Positions 40,994 to 49,325 of a DNA stretch of 64,000 nucleotides are shown piece by piece. The notes under the pieces are model-generated. The model worked only from the letters and a program-made list of their open reading frames with translations, ran no database searches and was not told where the DNA came from. The position numbers and the translations under genes were made by a program. The stretch's first letter is position 1, and every line of letters starts with the position of its first letter. Source of the stretch: a bacterium (lineage in GTDB: Bacteria > ARS69); the NCBI GenBank assembly GCA_025774805.1, contig JALGZR010000003.1, positions 1 through 64,000 of the forward strand, read 5' to 3'.

Positions 40994-42220
40994 ATGAGAT
41001 CGAACGACAAGCAGGTCACGCGCCGGGATCTACTCAAGCTGGGGATGGTGGCGGGCACGATCGGCTTCGTGGGCCGTCCCTTCTCCGCGGGCGCGGAGGA
41101 GAAACCGGTCCCGGAGGAGGGCGATGCCGGCGAGGACCTCAGCCTTCCTCAGGTGCCGCGCCGGATTCTCGGCAAGACGGGCAAGTCGATTCCCATTCTT
41201 CTCGTGGGAGGCGGCGTCAATCTCGACCCCCGTTTCGATCCCAAGCTGGCGGAGGCCCTGCGGTTCGGAGCGAACTACGTCGATGCCGCGGACTGCTACG
41301 GCGGCGGCTCGTGCGAGACCGCGGTCGGCAACTTTCACACGCGCGCGGACATCCGCAAGGAGCTCTGGATCACGAGCAAGAGCGACGCGCACGATCCCGA
41401 GGGGTTCGAGCGCACTCTCGAGACCAGCCTCGAGAAGATGCAGACCGACTACGTGGACATGTACTACTTGCACGCTCTCCAGAACGGCGACTACCTGAGC
41501 GACGAACTGCGCACCACGGTCGAGCGGCTCCGGAGCGGGGGGAAGATGCGCCACTTCGGCTTTTCCTGCCACCACGAGAACGTGGCCGAGCTCCTGCGGC
41601 TTGCCGCCGCGACGCCGTGGGTCGAGTCCGTGATGTTTCGCTACAACTTCCGGCAATACGGCGACAAGGAGCTGAACGACGCGATCGATGCGTGCGTGAA
41701 GGCCGGCGTGGGATTGATCGCCATGAAGACGCAGGGATCGGAGGCTTCCTTCCGAGAGGACTGGAGGAAGTTCGAACGGACCGGCAAGTGGACGAAGCAC
41801 CAGGCGGTGCTCAAGGCGGTCTGGGCCGACGACCGGATCACCGCGGCCGTCTCCCACATGGACAACCTCGAGAAGCTGAAGCAGAACCTCGCCGCCGCCC
41901 TGGACCGCACCGAGCTCGGGAGGGCGGACTGGAACGCCCTGGAGAAGTACGCGGCCGCCACCCGCAATCATGCCTGCGACGGCTGCGATCATCTCTGCGG
42001 GGCCGGGATGTCGGCTCCGATTCCGATCGGGGCCGTGATGCGCTACCTGATGTACCACGACGTCTACGGCGAACGGGAGAGGGCGAGAGAGCTCTTCACG
42101 CGGCTGCCGGCCGAGGCGCGAAACCTGGCCACGGCGGACTTCGGTTCCGCCAGCGCGGCCTGTCCGCACGGGGTGGACCTCGCGCGGCACATGGAGAGGG
42201 CCGCGCGCGTGCTCGCCTGA
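40994..42220 (+). CDS. Tat-exported aldo/keto reductase with C-terminal Cys cluster (redox operon gene 4)
   Basis: 408 residues. N-terminal twin-arginine signal ([19 protein letters not shown]). AKR TIM-barrel blocks: [15 protein letters not shown] (catalytic Asp/Tyr), ELWITSKSD (Lys), [12 protein letters not shown] and [10 protein letters not shown]. The C-terminus carries CDGCDHLC and ACPHGVD, the spacing seen in AKR subfamilies with a bound 4Fe-4S cluster. Export through Tat with bound cofactor and adjacency to a polyferredoxin suggest that electrons may come from the iron-sulfur chain rather than from NADPH. GGAGGGCAAGGAC precedes ATG. Substrate unknown. Confidence 0.88.
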
Positions 42221-42237
42221 CGAGGGCGAGCGTCATC

Positions 42238-43390
42238 TCACCATCGCCGGTGCAGCCCACCCATGAGATAGAGGCCCCTCTCTCCGCGCTCCGGAAAGCG
42301 AGGCGCGAGATTGACCTCCGCCCGCCAGGGAATCGGGAGTGATCGCGGCAGATCGAGTCCGACCGAGCGCGATCGGATCTCGCGGGGCCCGGGGTTTCTC
42401 TCCGCCGGGTAGCTCTCGGAGCCGGCGCTCGCCGAAAGGCGCACCTCGGTCGGGGCGCGCCAGGATCCCACCCACGAGCGCGTCGAAGTTCCCGCCGGAG
42501 CGCTCGGCCAGCATGTCGGTGAGAGCTTCCCGGAGACGCGGACGACCCGTATCCAGCACGCGAATGAGCAACGGAATCGCCTCGCCGTCCTCCAGGGTCG
42601 CGGTCCGCCATCACGATCGCGGAGACTCCATTTGCGGGAGAGAGGCTGTCGACCAGAGCCAGAACGACCATCGCGTCATCCAGGCCTCCGTCCGCCCGAG
42701 GATGAGGTCGAGCCGGTTGTACGCGCCGAGCGTCCGCGCCGCCTGTGCCCGAAGAGATCCGTGCGGGGTGCTCGGGAAATCCGAGACCCCCTTCTCCACC
42801 TCCTCCCCCGGATGGAGTCGCTCCAGGAGTCGAAGCACGGCCTCCTGGATCTTCGGATTCTCCTGATCGAGGAGGGAGCGCAGCCGGGGCAGATCCCGCG
42901 ACTTCGCGTCGCAGGCCAGATACCCGATGGCGGACTGGCGCACCACACGTCGTCGGATAGGAGAGGCTGCGGGTCAGGAAGTCCACCGAGTCCCGGGTCG
43001 GGAGCTTTCCCCGCGCCTCCGCCACCGCGGTACGGACGAAGAAGTCGGGATCGGTCACCAGGCCATCCAGGAGCATCCCGGAAGAGGAGGGGTCGCGCAG
43101 ATTCCCGAGGGCTCGGGCGGCCCGGGCGCGCAGCTCGGGATCGACATCGGTCAGGGTCGTTTGGAGCGAGAGCAGCCCGCGGCGGTCGCCGACGGCACGG
43201 AGAACGGGGCCCGCCCAGCGCCGGCCACGATCGACCGCGCGGGGTCCACCAGAACGCGGATGAGATGCTCGACGGCGGGCGTTCCGATCTTGGAGAGGAC
43301 GGTCGCGGCCAGGGAGGAGAGCCACGTCTCCGAACTGGAGAGTGCGTCGACGAGAGGGCCGACGGCCCCCGGGAAGAGAAACGAATGTCA
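42238..43390 (-). pseudogene. Decayed HEAT-repeat gene, possibly with an outer-membrane-like 3' part
   Basis: Recognisable pieces appear in order, but in changing frames: FPGAVGPLVDALSSSETWLS (about 43385-43230), then PELRARAARALGNLRDP...PDFFVRTAVAEARGKL (about 43160-43010), RQSAIGYLACDAKSRDLPRL...KIQEAVLRLLERLHP (about 42945-42800), then DDAMVVLALVDSLSPANGVS (about 42685-42620), TGRPRLREALTDMLAERSGG (about 42555-42490), and finally EVRLSASAGSESYPAERNPG... ending YLMGGLHRRW (to 42238). HEAT-type helices are clear; the last piece reads like beta-strands. At least four frame changes occur in 1.15 kb and the first segment has an in-frame stop just upstream. Either a pseudogene or a locally error-rich assembly. 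Confidence 0.65.
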
Positions 43391-43422
43391 AAATCGCATG
43401 AGATCCCGAGCTCGCAGCCTAC

Positions 43423-43450
43423 TTGATGCTTCGACATCGTGAGTGATAGT
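43423..43450 (+). promoter_or_regulatory. Possible sigma-70 type promoter of the multidomain regulator
   Basis: TTGATG and GATAGT separated by 16 bp, each four of six matches to consensus. If used, transcription would start near 43458, which rules out the GTG at 43443 and supports GTG at 43509. Confidence 0.3.
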
Positions 43451-43508
43451 CTGGTTTTCTCACCAGGAGGCTGCCGGGGCCCGCCCGGCGGCGTCGCGGG
43501 GAAGACTC

Positions 43509-46500
43509 GTGCGAACCGTCGCGATTCCCGGGTGGGACCTCGAGGAGCGGATCGGAGGGGGAGGGTCAGGAGAGGTATTCCGGGCCCGCCATAGGGAGAG
43601 CGGAGAGGTCGTCGCCCTCAAGCTCGGACACCCCTGTCCTCGGAGCAGTCCCGAGGACTTCGCCTTCAAGCTCGAGTACTCCCTGCACTCACGGCTCCGG
43701 CACCCCCACATCGTCCGCGCCCGTCAGTTCGGCGAGATCGACGGAGACCGCCGCTACTACACCATGGAGTTCGTCGAGGCCGTCCCCTTGACGGATCTCT
43801 TCCGGGACACGGGGCTCGAGGCCGCGGCCGAGATCGCGCTGGCCCTTCTGGCCGCGCTGGAGTACGCGCATTCCCAGAGAATTCTCCACGGGGACCTGAA
43901 GCCGGAAAACGTCCTCGTGTCGGTCGACTCCGCCGGCCGCCCGGATCGCATTCTGCTCGCCGACTTCGGCCATGCCCGGCGCCCGGGGCTCGGGACGCAA
44001 TCGGAGATCCGCGGCTCACTGGCCTACCTGGCCCCCGAGCAGATGGCGGGGTGGCCGCTCGACGGGAGATCGGATCTTTACTCGCTCGGGGTCACCCTGT
44101 TCGAGGCCACCTCCGGCCGTCTCCCCTATCCGGTCTCGACCCCGGAGGAGCTCCTTCGCGCCTACGCCGAGTTCCGCCCCCCTTCGGTGCTCGAGCTCGT
44201 TCCCGACCTGGATTCCCGGTGGGCCTCCCTCGTCGACTCGCTGATCTCCCGAAATCGCGAGAACCGCCCGCCCTCCGCCGCCGCCGCGTACCGCAAGGTC
44301 GCCGAGATCCTCGAACGGGATCCGGATCTCGCGGACGTGACGGAGGAGACCGAGCGGCTGCTGGCGCCGACGTTGCTGCACGTGGGCCGTCGCGAGGCGC
44401 TCGACACGCTTGCCCGCCTACTTCGCGATCCGGGACCGATCCGCACCGTGGTCATCCAGGGAGAGGCCGGGGTCGGCAAGACCCGGTTGGTGGAGGAGTT
44501 CGCTCAAACGGTGGAGCTGGAGGGCGGTCTCGTCCGGCGATCCGACGCCGCGGAAGGAGCGGCCGCGGGGTTCCGCGTGCTGCGCCAGGTCTGGAACGAG
44601 GGAGAGGTCGTCGACCTGGCGGGACCGGAAGAGGTCGAACGGAAGGAGTCCCGGAGACCGGGAGCTTCCGCTCGGCCCGGATCGAAGATCCGCGCGGCGG
44701 AGCTCGGGCGTCTCGCCGACCGCTTCTTCGAGGGCGAGGAGTCGAGGACCCGCGAGAGGATCTTCCTCTTCGACTCGCTCGATCGCGCCGATCTCGACAG
44801 CCTTGCCTTCCTCGGAGCCCTGCAGGGACGAATCGCGGGATCCCGGGTCCTTCTCTGTCTGGTCACGCGGACCCCGGGAGAGGAATCGCTCCACCGATTC
44901 CTGGACGAGCGATTCACCCACACCGTTCGGCTGGAGCCCCTCGGAAAGGACGACGTCGCGACGTTTCTCGCGGCTCACCTCGGGGCCGGCACCGACGACT
45001 CGGGAACCGGTCTGCCGCCTCTCGACGAGGAGGAGATGGCGGAGCTCGTGGGCTGGATGTCCCGGAACACCGGCGGCAATCCGAGACGGATGGAGCTCGC
45101 TCTCCGGGGGTTGGTACGCGAGGGGCATCTTCAGCGGCTCGGCCCGGCGTGGCGCCTGGAGGCCCGGTCCCTGCCGAGCTCGATGCTCCGACGCGACGGG
45201 TCCGAGCGCGAGCTCGAGCGGCTCGACGGGGTCTCGATGGAGACGCGCTCGTTCCTGGAGACGGCGAGCGTCGCGGGGCCCGAGTTCGACGTCTCCGACG
45301 TCGCGGCCTGGGCCGAGCTCGACCCGCCGACCTCCGTCGACTCCCTCGCGGAGTCGCTGCTGGCCGGGGTGCTGGCGGCCGACCCTGGGGGATCCTCCCG
45401 GGTTCGCTTCCGGGATCCGGAGTTCGCGCGGGCGCTGCGCGAATCGCTGACCGAGGAGAGGAGCCGAGAGCTCCACCTCCGCCTCGCGGAGTACCTCTCC
45501 GCCCCGGAGCGGGAAGAGGGAGCCGCGGCCGATCTCGCGTTCCACCTGGAGAGGGCCGGCGAGAGAGCGCGGGCTCGAGAGGCGTACGTCCGGGCCGCGA
45601 TTCGCGATCGGGACCGCGGGGCCCACCTCGAGGCGGCCCGGCACTTCCGGAAGGCCTGGGAGCTCCACTCCGCCCGGGAGCGGAGAAAGATCCCGGAGTT
45701 CGCCTCCGACTGGATCCTCGCGCTCCACACGAACGCTCACTTCGACGAGGCCGTCGAGACGATCGAGGAGATCTTGGGGGAAGCGAAGTCCGGGGAGGCG
45801 TCCCGTCCCGCGTCGGCGAGCCTCCTGCTCTGGAAGGGGATCTGCCTCGCCGCCGCCGGTCGCCGGGAAGAGGGACTGGAGTGCCTCCGAGCCCTGCTGG
45901 AAACCGGCCCGAAGATCGAGGATCCCCTCCTGGAGGCTCGGGCGCTTTTGGAGCACGGGTGGCTCAGGTATCTCGTCCACCGGGACAAGGACGCCCGAGC
46001 CGCCCTGGTCCGGGCTCGGGAGATCGGCCTTCGCGAGGGCGATCCCTACACGGCCGGAACGGCGGAGCTTCGTCTCGGAATCCTGTGCTGGCGGGGGGAT
46101 GATCCGGTCACCGCACTGGAGTGGCACGCGCGCGCCCACGACCACCTCGTGGAGGCGGAGGGAGATGATCTCCTTCCCGCGGTCTGGGGTAACCAGGCGA
46201 TCTGTCACTGGACGCTTCTCGAGACGCGCAAAGCGGTGAGATCCCATCGGCGGGCGGCCGAGGGGTTCTTGCGACTCCACCGGCGCGCGGAGGCGACCCG
46301 TTCCTACCAGAACCTCGCCTTCGTCCTCATCGAGATGGGTCACTGGGAAGAGGCGGAGGAGACGCTCACCACGGCCGAGCATCTCTTCCGCTCCCTGAGG
46401 GGTCCCCGAGAGGCGAGCTACTTCGAATACTGCCGCGCCCGCCTCGCCCTTCACCGGGGTCGCTACCGGGAGGCCCTCGATCGCGTCGATCTGGCGATCG

Positions 46501-48704
46501 GAATGGCGTCCGAGCTCGAGGACCCGCTGGTCTCCGTCGGGCATCACTCTCTCCGGGGGCTGATCGAACTCTCTTCGGGGCGCTCATCGGAGGCGGGACG
46601 GACCGCGATGCAGTGTCTCGACTCGGCGCGGCGCATCGACTACCGGTGGGGAATCGCCAAGAGCCTTTTCCTTCTCGGTCGGGCGGCGGGTGAGGAGAAG
46701 AACACGAACCGGGCGCTCGAGCATCTCGACGACGCCCGGAGGGTGGCGACCGACTCGAGCCAGGCGGTGCTGGAGCTCCACATCGAGTTGGCGCGGGCGG
46801 AGATCCTCGCGCACCGGGGCGATTCGCAGGAAGCCCATCGCGTCCTCGCCCGGTGCCAGACTCTGTTGGAGCCTGCCGAGTCCCTCTTCTGGAACGCGCT
46901 CCTCGCTCTGACGACCGGGAAAGTCCGCGCGCGTCTGGGGACTGCCGAGAAGGCGTGTCAATCCCTCACGGATGCCTATGACGCGTTTGCCAAGCTCGGG
47001 GCGGAGCACCTGCGGGCGGAGACGCTCTCGCTTCTCGCCGGTCTCCGCGCGGACATGGGAAACGTGAGCGCCGCCCGGGCGGCCTGGCGCCAGGCCCGCG
47101 TTCTCCTCGAGCATTTGGACCTACCGCTCCCGACGCCGCCGATTCCGGACGACCTCGAGGGGCGGGCCAGTTCGGCCCCGACGGTGCAACGGGTTCTCGA
47201 GGCGGCGACCTCCGTCTCCCGGGAGGTCACGACGGCTCAGAGCGTCGACTCGGCCCTGGAGCGAATCCTCGACGTCGCCATCACCCATCTCGGCGCCGAG
47301 CGCGGGGTCATCGCCCTCGAGGGCGAAGGGAGCCGCGAGCTGAAGGTCCGATTCGCCCGGAACATGGATCCCGATCCGTTCCTCGACAGTCTGGAGGTCA
47401 GTCGATCCGCCATCTCCCGGGTCGGGAAGGAGGGAGAGGCGATCCACTCCCGGGACGCCCTCGCGGATCCCCTCCTCGGTCTCAAGGAGAGCGTGCAGAG
47501 AAGCCGCATCCGGTCCCTGGTCTCCGTCCCGATCCGCTGGGGGGATCGCGTTCTCGGCGCCATCTACATGGATCACCGGGAGCTCACGGATCTCTTCGGT
47601 CGGGAAGAGCGGCTCTTCCTCCAGTTCATCGCCGACATGGCCGCGATCGGGATTCGCAACGCCCAGCGGTTCGAGTTCGCCCAGGAACAGGTCCACATCC
47701 TGCGCGGCGAGCTGCAGGAGGAGACGCTCCACTTCCCGGGAACGGTCATCGGTCGCAGCAAGCGCATGCGGAGTCTGATTCACAGAGGCATCCGGGCCGC
47801 CAAGGCGGGAAAGGTCATCCTGCTCACGGGACCGAGCGGCGCCGGTAAGGACCACTTGGCCAAGGTGCTTCACGACGCGTCGGGGAGGACGGGCGATTTC
47901 GTGAACTGCCCTCTTCCCACGCTCTCCGAGACTCTGATCGAGAGCGAGCTCTTCGGCATCGCCCGAGGAACCGCGACGCAGGTCGAGCCCCGACCCGGCT
48001 TCGCCGAGGTGGCCAGGGGCGGGACCCTGTTCCTCAACGAGATCGGAGACCTTCCGTTGGGCCTGCAACCCATCCTCCTGAGCTTTCTGGAGAACCGGAC
48101 CTTCCGCAGAGTCGGGGGGCGGGAGTTGCTCGAGCTCGACGGCCTCATCATCTGCGCGACGAACCTGGACCTCGCCCGGCGGACGGCCGAGAGAGCCTTC
48201 CGGGAGGATCTCTACTACCGCCTGATGGAGTGCGTGCTGGAGGTTCCCCCTCTTCGCGAGCGATCCGAGGACATCCCCGAGCTCGTGGATCTCCTGCTCC
48301 GCGATCTGGAGCGAAGCGCCGGACGGGAAGGCCTCATCGTGAGTCGCCGGGCCATGGATATCCTGATGGAGTGCCCTTGGGACGGGAATATCCGGGAACT
48401 GAAAAGCTGTCTCGGGCGCGCGGTCGACAGCTGCCCCTCGGGGATCATCGACCCGCAGCACTTGGAGAGTCCGAGCTTGCAGACGACGCGGCACCCCGTG
48501 GCCGTCGTCGATACGAGAGACGTGCGGGAGGAGATGGAGGGGGTCGAGATCCGCCGGATCCACGAGGCCATGCGGAAGACGGGCGGGATCATCACCCGTT
48601 CCGCCGAGCTGCTTGGCCTCACGGAGGCGGCCCTGAGACGGCGGATCAAGAGGTACCACCTCGAGCACCTGGTGTTGCACCGGAAACCCCGTGCGAAGAA
48701 ATAA
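43509..48704 (+). CDS. Multidomain regulator: Ser/Thr kinase, STAND-like ATPase, TPR, GAF, NtrC-type AAA+, Fis-type HTH
   Basis: 1,731 residues, no membrane helix. Kinase at about 8-285: IGGGGSGEVFRA loop, VALKL Lys, HGDLKPEN and ADFG, so likely active although HRD is HGD. P-loop ATPase near 318-325 (EAGVGKTRLVEE) with FLFDSLDRADLD. TPR-like helices about 620-1180. GAF about 1230-1390 (HLGAERGVIALEG, DRVLGAIYMDHREL). AAA+ about 1410-1645: Walker A GPSGAGKD (Lys 1447), ELFG, Walker B LFLNEIGD, and FREDLYYRL with the PPLRER end. GAFTGA is replaced by GTATQV (1487-1492) and the Walker B Asp by Asn1510. A Fis-like HTH (about 1680-1725) ends it. GTG at 43509 has GGGGAAG upstream; GTG at 43443 is the alternative. 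It probably senses cell state through the kinase and GAF parts and acts on the sites immediately downstream. Confidence 0.88.
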   Translation: MRTVAIPGWDLEERIGGGGSGEVFRARHRESGEVVALKLGHPCPRSSPEDFAFKLEYSLHSRLRHPHIVRARQFGEIDGDRRYYTMEFVEAVPLTDLFRDTGLEAAAEIALALLAALEYAHSQRILHGDLKPENVLVSVDSAGRPDRILLADFGHARRPGLGTQSEIRGSLAYLAPEQMAGWPLDGRSDLYSLGVTLFEATSGRLPYPVSTPEELLRAYAEFRPPSVLELVPDLDSRWASLVDSLISRNRENRPPSAAAAYRKVAEILERDPDLADVTEETERLLAPTLLHVGRREALDTLARLLRDPGPIRTVVIQGEAGVGKTRLVEEFAQTVELEGGLVRRSDAAEGAAAGFRVLRQVWNEGEVVDLAGPEEVERKESRRPGASARPGSKIRAAELGRLADRFFEGEESRTRERIFLFDSLDRADLDSLAFLGALQGRIAGSRVLLCLVTRTPGEESLHRFLDERFTHTVRLEPLGKDDVATFLAAHLGAGTDDSGTGLPPLDEEEMAELVGWMSRNTGGNPRRMELALRGLVREGHLQRLGPAWRLEARSLPSSMLRRDGSERELERLDGVSMETRSFLETASVAGPEFDVSDVAAWAELDPPTSVDSLAESLLAGVLAADPGGSSRVRFRDPEFARALRESLTEERSRELHLRLAEYLSAPEREEGAAADLAFHLERAGERARAREAYVRAAIRDRDRGAHLEAARHFRKAWELHSARERRKIPEFASDWILALHTNAHFDEAVETIEEILGEAKSGEASRPASASLLLWKGICLAAAGRREEGLECLRALLETGPKIEDPLLEARALLEHGWLRYLVHRDKDARAALVRAREIGLREGDPYTAGTAELRLGILCWRGDDPVTALEWHARAHDHLVEAEGDDLLPAVWGNQAICHWTLLETRKAVRSHRRAAEGFLRLHRRAEATRSYQNLAFVLIEMGHWEEAEETLTTAEHLFRSLRGPREASYFEYCRARLALHRGRYREALDRVDLAIGMASELEDPLVSVGHHSLRGLIELSSGRSSEAGRTAMQCLDSARRIDYRWGIAKSLFLLGRAAGEEKNTNRALEHLDDARRVATDSSQAVLELHIELARAEILAHRGDSQEAHRVLARCQTLLEPAESLFWNALLALTTGKVRARLGTAEKACQSLTDAYDAFAKLGAEHLRAETLSLLAGLRADMGNVSAARAAWRQARVLLEHLDLPLPTPPIPDDLEGRASSAPTVQRVLEAATSVSREVTTAQSVDSALERILDVAITHLGAERGVIALEGEGSRELKVRFARNMDPDPFLDSLEVSRSAISRVGKEGEAIHSRDALADPLLGLKESVQRSRIRSLVSVPIRWGDRVLGAIYMDHRELTDLFGREERLFLQFIADMAAIGIRNAQRFEFAQEQVHILRGELQEETLHFPGTVIGRSKRMRSLIHRGIRAAKAGKVILLTGPSGAGKDHLAKVLHDASGRTGDFVNCPLPTLSETLIESELFGIARGTATQVEPRPGFAEVARGGTLFLNEIGDLPLGLQPILLSFLENRTFRRVGGRELLELDGLIICATNLDLARRTAERAFREDLYYRLMECVLEVPPLRERSEDIPELVDLLLRDLERSAGREGLIVSRRAMDILMECPWDGNIRELKSCLGRAVDSCPSGIIDPQHLESPSLQTTRHPVAVVDTRDVREEMEGVEIRRIHEAMRKTGGIITRSAELLGLTEAALRRRIKRYHLEHLVLHRKPRAKK

Positions 48705-48712
48705 GTTAGGGC

Positions 48713-48732
48713 ATTCGGCGTTCCCGTCGAAT
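48713..48732. promoter_or_regulatory. Imperfect 20-bp palindrome, candidate activator site 1
   Basis: ATTCGGCG-TTCC-CGTCGAAT: seven of eight arm positions pair. It begins 9 bp after the regulator's stop codon, and its centre lies about 281 bp upstream of the predicted sigma-54 start point. Confidence 0.55.
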
Positions 48733-48733
48733 G

Positions 48734-48753
48734 GTTCGCCGAAATCGTCGAAT
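48734..48753. promoter_or_regulatory. Imperfect 20-bp palindrome, candidate activator site 2
   Basis: GTTCGCCGA-AA-TCGTCGAAT: seven of nine arm positions pair. Its centre is 21 bp from that of site 1, which would place both on the same face of the helix. Confidence 0.55.
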
Positions 48754-48833
48754 GACCGACGGGAACGGCCTGCGCTCTCCAGGTAGGTAGGAGCCCCGCA
48801 ACTCGGCAGGGGCCTTCTGGAGGGCGTTTGCCG

Positions 48834-48853
48834 ATTCGACGAAATCGTCGAAT
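48834..48853. promoter_or_regulatory. Perfect 20-bp palindrome, candidate activator site 3
   Basis: ATTCGACGA-AA-TCGTCGAAT: both nine-base arms are perfectly complementary. It lies exactly 100 bp from site 2 and about 160 bp upstream of the predicted transcription start, a normal distance for a sigma-54 enhancer. Confidence 0.65.
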
Positions 48854-48979
48854 GGCGCAGGCGAAGCCCCGGCGGGTTCATCTCCTCCGCCCGTCGCCTT
48901 CCCCGCGCCGGTCGTAACGGACGATTCGACAGGGCCTTGGACCGGCCGGGCCCGGAGAGGGGGGAACGTGTCTCCAAGA

Positions 48980-48993
48980 GGCACGCGTTTTGC
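48980..48993 (+). promoter_or_regulatory. Sigma-54 (-24/-12) promoter for the secreted peptide gene
   Basis: GGCACG-CGTT-TTGC matches the sigma-54 core (TGGCACG-N4-TTGCA) at every position of the GGCACG and TTGC boxes, with the required 10 bp between GG and GC. The expected transcription start is about 49004, giving a ~73-nt leader before the ATG at 49077. Confidence 0.65.
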
Positions 48994-49076
48994 GATCCAT
49001 AACCATCAGCCCCGGGTGACAGCGTCGGAATGTGCCGACTCCGTCCCTTCAGGGGAACGAGGGAAGGATGACCGTC

Positions 49077-49325
49077 ATGAAGCACAAGCCCTTGTTGAAG
49101 CTCGCAACTCTGCTCCTGGCTCTAGGACTTGCGATCCAACTCGGTGGGGTACCCGCCCTGGCAGGCACTACCGCGGACCCGACCGGAGGTGGTCAGGATC
49201 CTCCTTACCCTCCCGCCCCTCCTGGCGAAGGAGACGAGAGCGTGCCGATCGAGACCGACTCGATGGACGGCGGCGACGTCATCGCGGGAATGGTGGGGGT
49301 TCTGATCCAGATCACCCGACTCTGA
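49077..49325 (+). CDS. Small secreted peptide precursor downstream of a sigma-54 promoter
   Basis: 82 residues. Residues 1-28 form a good Sec signal peptide (KHKPLLKLATLLLALGLAIQ, then VPALA as cleavage site). The mature ~53 residues are Gly/Pro/Asp-rich (GGGQDPPYPPAPPGEGDES) and end in a short hydrophobic segment (IAGMVGVLIQITRL). There is no cysteine. GGAAGG lies 9 nt upstream of this ATG; the ATG at 49068 is too close to it. No homologue is recognised. The position directly after the giant regulator, behind palindromes and a sigma-54 promoter, suggests a regulated export product such as a signal, toxin-like peptide or envelope factor. Confidence 0.65.
   Translation: MKHKPLLKLATLLLALGLAIQLGGVPALAGTTADPTGGGQDPPYPPAPPGEGDESVPIETDSMDGGDVIAGMVGVLIQITRL

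Follow-up and report, generated by a model that had tools for sequence, protein, structure and literature searches.

A giant kinase-ATPase-TPR-GAF regulator, candidate operators and a sigma-54 promoter beside a short exported peptide gene: a probable self-contained module that recurs across phyla

A 64-kb stretch of bacterial DNA (the window) carries what is probably a self-contained sigma-54 module, in which a 1,731-aa regulator would activate the promoter of a short exported peptide from palindromes lying between the two genes; this is the reading that best explains the locus as a whole. The predicted gene order of regulator, palindromes, -24/-12 promoter and short exported peptide is conserved in an ortholog from another genus and in a second phylum. 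Since the layout recurs in other phyla, we regard it as a real signalling module and not as a chance arrangement.

Layout of the locus and its closest ortholog

The features of the locus are the following.

43509-48704, plus strand: giant regulator, 1,731 aa (Pfam; start backed by the ortholog N-terminus)
43539-44273, plus strand: Ser/Thr kinase domain (PF00069, E 6.7e-38)
44382-44837, plus strand: AAA_16 (STAND-like) ATPase domain (PF13191, E 1.7e-14)
46059-46265, plus strand: TPR unit, the best-scoring within a longer TPR region (PF13424, E 4.8e-12)
47247-47654, plus strand: GAF domain (PF01590, E 2.2e-12)
47745-48488, plus strand: sigma-54 AAA+ domain with its lid; motor residues diverged (PF00158, PF25601; residues; predicted fold)
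47967-47984, plus strand: GTATQV replacing the GAFTGA loop (sequence alignment)
48537-48656, plus strand: HTH_8 DNA-binding domain (PF02954, E 1.7e-7)
48713-48732, no strand: palindrome 1, ATTCGGCGTTCCCGTCGAAT, one arm mismatch, centre 257 bp upstream of -24
48734-48753, no strand: palindrome 2, GTTCGCCGAAATCGTCGAAT, two mismatches, centre 236 bp upstream of -24
48834-48853, no strand: palindrome 3, ATTCGACGAAATCGTCGAAT, arms perfect, centre 136 bp upstream of -24
48980-48993, plus strand: -24/-12 sigma-54 promoter GGCACGCGTTTTGC, score 30/33, predicted transcription start about 49005
49077-49325, plus strand: gene for an 82-aa exported peptide (signal peptide, GQDPP, hydrophobic C-terminus), with a positional equivalent in the ortholog

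The open frame around the regulator spans 43443-48704; the GTG start at 43509 is favoured because the N-terminus of the ortholog aligns with it (VETLFIPGFDLLESIG versus VRTVAIPGWDLEERIG). Pfam analysis revealed the domain order Pkinase - AAA_16 - TPR_12 - GAF - Sigma54_activat - AAA_lid_14 - HTH_8. The kinase domain has the glycine loop and the VALK, HGDLKPEN and DFG motifs, and the Sigma54_activat match scored 149 bits against a Pfam cut-off of 20.2. These domains and the start backed by the ortholog bear out the 1,731-residue kinase/ATPase/GAF/NtrC-type regulator of the initial annotation, as do the sequences downstream of it its three 20-bp palindromes, its GGCACG-N4-TTGC element at the right spacing (30/33, with an equal score in the ortholog) and its 82-residue peptide gene with a signal-peptide-like N-terminus. 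Upstream of the regulator, the minus strand at 42096-43437 showed HEAT-repeat coding potential over overlapping frames, as if from a frameshifted gene or assembly errors.

The phylum of the window was sampled with five genomes, one other of which carries the regulator. This ortholog (L032/L070; contig JAGQIB010000457.1), from another genus, shows 42% identity over the full length, and a scan of genome contigs detected only the same ortholog, labelled Gemmatimonadetes bacterium HKST-UBA01. It is followed by palindromes CCGGAATCGGCGTTTTGAACGTCGATTCCGG and ACTCCGAAATCGGAGT, whose centres precede -24 by about 251 and 140 bp, by the promoter AGGCACGCCCCTTGCC (30/33) and by a gene for a 66-aa exported peptide, MSSIKQITRTLALAFTLTLVASPWLGLAHADGELDNGQDPPIAHYVGSISIDSVARVISFAVNVIL, with GQDPP. 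The initial annotation had made its reading depend on conservation of the palindromes or the -24/-12 element; two palindromes at matching distances and an equal -24/-12 were found. The same domain order with an adjoining signal-peptide gene and -24/-12 promoter, which it had proposed to look for in related genomes, was present in the ortholog and in four genomes of the second phylum. A third genome of the window's phylum (G002) encodes a 1,084-aa TPR-GAF-type EBP, followed by TGGCATCCGGATTGC and a 102-aa ORF whose N-terminal part includes a hydrophobic stretch. Further EBP genes of the host (L003, L004, L005, L012) likewise have a -24/-12 element and an exported ORF, one of them pilin-like, just downstream.

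The AAA+ motor and its contact loop

The GAFTGA loop is absent from both proteins, GTATQV standing in its place in the window regulator and GAATGV in the ortholog. The AAA+ and HTH_8 domains and the upstream palindromes agree with the NtrC-type activator that had been proposed, but the GTATQV loop and changes at three further residues important in PspF (E43, N64, D107) do not. These changes, E43D, N64P/S (N64P in the window) and D107N in PspF numbering, are found in the window regulator and the ortholog and set the two apart from nearly all other aligned relatives; Asp occupies the N64 position in two relatives, and G393, outside the residue alignment, likewise has Asn at D107. Alignment with NifA agrees with the assignment of the N64 position. 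Equivalents of K42, E108, R162, D164 and R168 are retained in the window AAA+ domain. For the GAF-AAA-HTH part, AlphaFold gave a pLDDT of 82, and the predicted AAA+ fold resembles the NtrC1, FleQ and FlrC structures.

Alignment of 10 variant-loop regulators showed the GAFTGA Phe replaced by Ala and the last Ala by Val or Ile, with the Thr retained; most relatives examined have a VATGV-type loop. In one tree 9 of 11 variant-loop regulators formed a clade (support 93/92), with the window pair on a long branch. When the loop was masked, a single clade of all 11 had a p-AU of 0.487, so these alignments neither show nor reject a single origin of all variant loops.

PspF D107A and N64Q lose most ATPase activity and are nearly inactive (PMC3419264), the PspF mutant at Walker B being D107A whereas the change in the window is D107N. 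GAFTGA F to A changes generally abolish sigma-54 activation (PMC3162934). DVUA0100 of D. vulgaris, with a GVATGV loop, has been judged sigma-54-active from regulon predictions, although this was not shown (PMC4641369). Because the loop is a variant and three ATPase residues are changed in the window lineage, direct activation of sigma-54 by the window regulator is likely but unproven. The residue comparison leaves the sigma-54 promoter well supported, while direct remodelling by this regulator, as we infer it, faces a real rival: the protein may bind the operators with a motor that no longer remodels sigma-54, and repress, poise or co-assemble while another of the roughly 30 host EBPs opens the promoter. 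The loop and the three ATPase residues have changed together in both window and ortholog, the host genome has 34 sigma-54 AAA+ hits from which a substitute could come, and TyrR, HupR and other EBPs whose GAFTGA is defective work without sigma-54 (PMC3162934). We nevertheless consider this reading unlikely, if far from negligible, given that the window AAA+ domain retains the loop Thr, the Walker A Lys, the catalytic Glu, the sensor I Asn, the R-finger residues and the sensor II Arg, and that the same layout occurs in relatives whose motors are intact apart from a VATGV-type loop.

The exported peptide

The 82-aa ORF is preceded by a Shine-Dalgarno-like GAGGGAAGG. By inspection, the peptides of the window, the ortholog and the second phylum all have signal-peptide-like N-termini, as the exported precursor of a pheromone-type system would, and Sec is the probable route of export. 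In the window and in the ortholog alike, the signal peptide is followed by GQDPP, although the overall similarity of these two peptides was not significant (81/1000 layout-keeping shuffles). Homology between phyla was likewise not significant in such shuffles, only the comparisons of the window with L140 (16/1000) and of L070 with L139 (41/1000) being suggestive. The one thing shared with confidence between phyla is the layout of signal peptide, acidic/proline linker and hydrophobic C-terminus. Pfam and NCBIfam searches gave no match above cut-off for the peptides of two relatives and, for the window peptide, DUF4730 at 16 bits, under its cut-off of 27. A search for paralogs in the window's five-genome phylum gave none that convinced, the best non-self match (E 0.011) lying within a 320-aa frame.

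In the second phylum, third codon positions took most of the substitutions, the counts at the three positions being 22, 17 and 42 for L137/L138 and 28, 11 and 33 for L139/L140, and the peptide gene of the latter pair gave dN 0.38 and dS 1.0 (dN/dS about 0.37, one pair). Judged by these substitutions, the second-phylum peptide is a real, conserved gene under purifying selection.

The HDOD gene downstream had been suggested as a further partner. It begins 25 bp past the peptide stop (49325) with no terminator-like site between, and the promoter might accordingly be thought to serve the HDOD gene, with the short ORF as a mere leader in that operon. In the ortholog and the second-phylum loci the peptide is kept but no HDOD gene comes after it; we therefore place the HDOD gene outside the module and hold the leader reading to be very unlikely.

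Promoter and candidate operators

The promoter lies in AGGCACGCGTTTTGCG (48979-48994; AGGCACGCGTTTTGC at 48979-48993). It is the top-scoring -24/-12 site in the 64-kb window, and its 30/33, by scoring rules fixed only after the loci had been seen, compares with a chance expectation of about 0.007 per 350 nt on one strand. The -24 GG and -12 GC stand at the correct spacing here and in the ortholog. The host has one rpoN (E 3.7e-64), and rpoN was found in 12/12 other genomes tested (13/13 including the host).

Exactly two perfect matches to the palindrome pattern ATTCGNCGNNNNCGNCGAAT occur in the 5.1-Mb assembly, both at this locus. Three sites have one mismatch; the middle palindrome is one of them, and the two others have no good -24/-12 nearby, which speaks against a wider regulon using the same palindrome. 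The three palindromes share the frame TCG[GCA]CG-N4-CGTCGA, a 16-bp TCG-N10-CGA, whose count was compared with 500 dinucleotide shuffles (for the window, of the 274 nt from regulator to promoter). The observed count was reached in 0/500 shuffles for the window and for G138, and at frequencies of 0.002 in G391, 0.016 in G389 and 0.114 in G388, which carries one copy only. This frame is absent from the closest ortholog, L070.

Candidate operators lie 97-140 and 217-275 bp upstream of -24, the usual enhancer range; across six loci the spacing is 97-136 and 217-275 bp. Examination of 320 bp on the upstream side of the regulator showed no such operator, and we therefore infer control of the peptide, not autoregulation. 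Palindrome 1 begins 9 bp past the regulator stop codon, a position that would also suit a transcript hairpin or terminator of the regulator gene. Such a role is highly improbable for the set, as a search for a terminator-like site found none and copies of the frame keep fixed spacings to -24 from locus to locus, some as far as about 130 bp past the stop codon.

Recurrence in other lineages

A full-length regulator profile matched 15 of the 385 sampled genomes. In a second phylum (that of G138) 6/8 genomes carry the regulator, and four of them (G138, G389, G388, G391) have TCG-N10-CGA operators, a -24/-12 element (weak in G389, 25/33) and homologous peptides of 70-75 aa, e.g. ...FADGDDPPTNPGDPEPDLPLGGTLSPTAGTLLEVMIFAFFASVQLLL. 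The downstream region is complete in G138, G389 and G388; in G391 an insertion of about 2.2 kb separates the elements from the regulator. A peptide ORF lies about 2 kb downstream of the regulator in G394, and the arrangement is absent from G395. The regulator of G140 has a canonical GAFTGA loop and is accompanied by GTAAAC-AATA-GTTTAC and GTAAAT-TAAA-GTTTAC, different in sequence and of the same 6-4-6 geometry, by TGGCATATCAATTGCT and by an 80-aa exported peptide. In G105, G198 and G222 the regulator, a -24/-12 element and a secreted ORF are present, with no clear operators. A mechanical rule (-24/-12 plus exported ORF downstream) was satisfied by 7/10 variant-loop regulators, 2/15 other giants and 5/27 canonical EBPs (26 from the host, one from G002); its p-values of 0.009 and 0.006 are indicative only, the rule having been written after the loci were seen and the rows being non-independent. 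When plasmids were searched by tblastn with the L071 AAA+ region, most of the matches listed were ordinary EBPs, AtoC-like ones included.

GC-rich DNA commonly contains short ORFs and weak motifs, and our scoring rules were set after the sequences had been seen, but recurrence of the layout in the ortholog and the second phylum, with a peptide under purifying selection in the latter, largely refutes a chance arrangement, which we set aside as scarcely credible.

At L137:7141-7710, with equivalents at L138, L139, L140 and L145, the peptide gene is followed by a small AAA+ gene that is EBP-like but lacks both a GAFTGA loop and an HTH. It was seen in second-phylum loci and, as a partial frame, in G394, not in the window or the ortholog, and the DNA examined near the window locus contained no such homolog. 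Its product could be a partner or a brake of the giant regulator. At L137-L140, the module is bordered past this gene by dnaK and by a protein that weakly matches AHJR/Hjc-like nucleases. A 101-aa peptide gene at L142 (G198:C142) is followed, about 500-4500 nt after the EBP, by several more secreted ORFs and a small AAA-like one.

Proposed mechanism and implications

If the regulator does activate the peptide promoter, its HTH_8 domain would bind the palindromes as dimers, and the distal and proximal operators would seed the AAA+ ring. DNA looping would carry the ring to RNA polymerase-sigma-54 at -24/-12, where ATP-driven remodelling via the variant loop would start transcription of the peptide gene. 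As long as no internal signal is received, the ring may be kept inactive by the kinase, STAND-like ATPase, TPR and GAF parts, and the output would therefore be a single small exported peptide made in a switched burst. Once exported, the peptide might serve as a signal, an antagonist or an envelope component.

More tentatively, and with somewhat less than even confidence, the loci could represent a cross-phylum class in which giant kinase-STAND-TPR-GAF sigma-54 regulators, their contact loop re-engineered to the VATGV type, govern exported peptides; the motor of the window lineage may open sigma-54 promoters although it lacks both GAFTGA and the Walker B aspartate. The usual yardstick for sigma-54 activation is the GAFTGA loop, and EBPs that lack it are rated as doubtful or non-functional in surveys. 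A VATGV-type lineage beside good -24/-12 promoters suggests that this rule is too strict, and its members allow the need for individual loop residues to be tested cleanly. The orphan exported peptides are placed under an elaborate internal sensor; their role would reveal what several little-known phyla release, and when.

Comparison with known systems

A literature search, with most subscription journals outside its reach, found among the papers listed no description of this combination with an adjoining exported peptide. The initial annotation's view of the combination as undescribed thus holds for the module, apparently, but the domain combination is not unique, as its occurrence across the sampled genomes shows.

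For the kinase-STAND-TPR front end the best comparisons are PknK and the STK-GAF-HisK dual kinases (PMC1262709). Kinase-STAND-TPR regulators and these dual kinases likewise fuse a Ser/Thr kinase to further signalling domains in one cytosolic protein, but the window regulator has sigma-54 AAA+ and HTH_8 as its output, not LuxR or a histidine kinase. DVUA0100 of Desulfovibrio vulgaris, likened here by description and not by sequence, shares the GVATGV loop, a long N-terminal region and predicted sigma-54 targets beside its own gene, whereas these targets are type III secretion operons and not a lone exported peptide (PMC4641369). Links between sigma-54 and the exterior of the cell are already an established theme (PMC3162934). 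Within the host, the pilin-type pair at L005 also has TGGCACGGCCCATGC downstream of an EBP gene and then an exported protein, but its loop is GSFTGA and its product is pilin-like, not a small orphan peptide. The best PDB sequence match of the regulator is NifA (9qq6). With NifA/NorR one-component activators that carry an N-terminal GAF it shares the order GAF - AAA+ - HTH_8, palindromes upstream of a -24/-12 promoter and a local target; in contrast to them, it adds the kinase, AAA_16 and TPR front end, the GTATQV loop and diverged ATPase residues.
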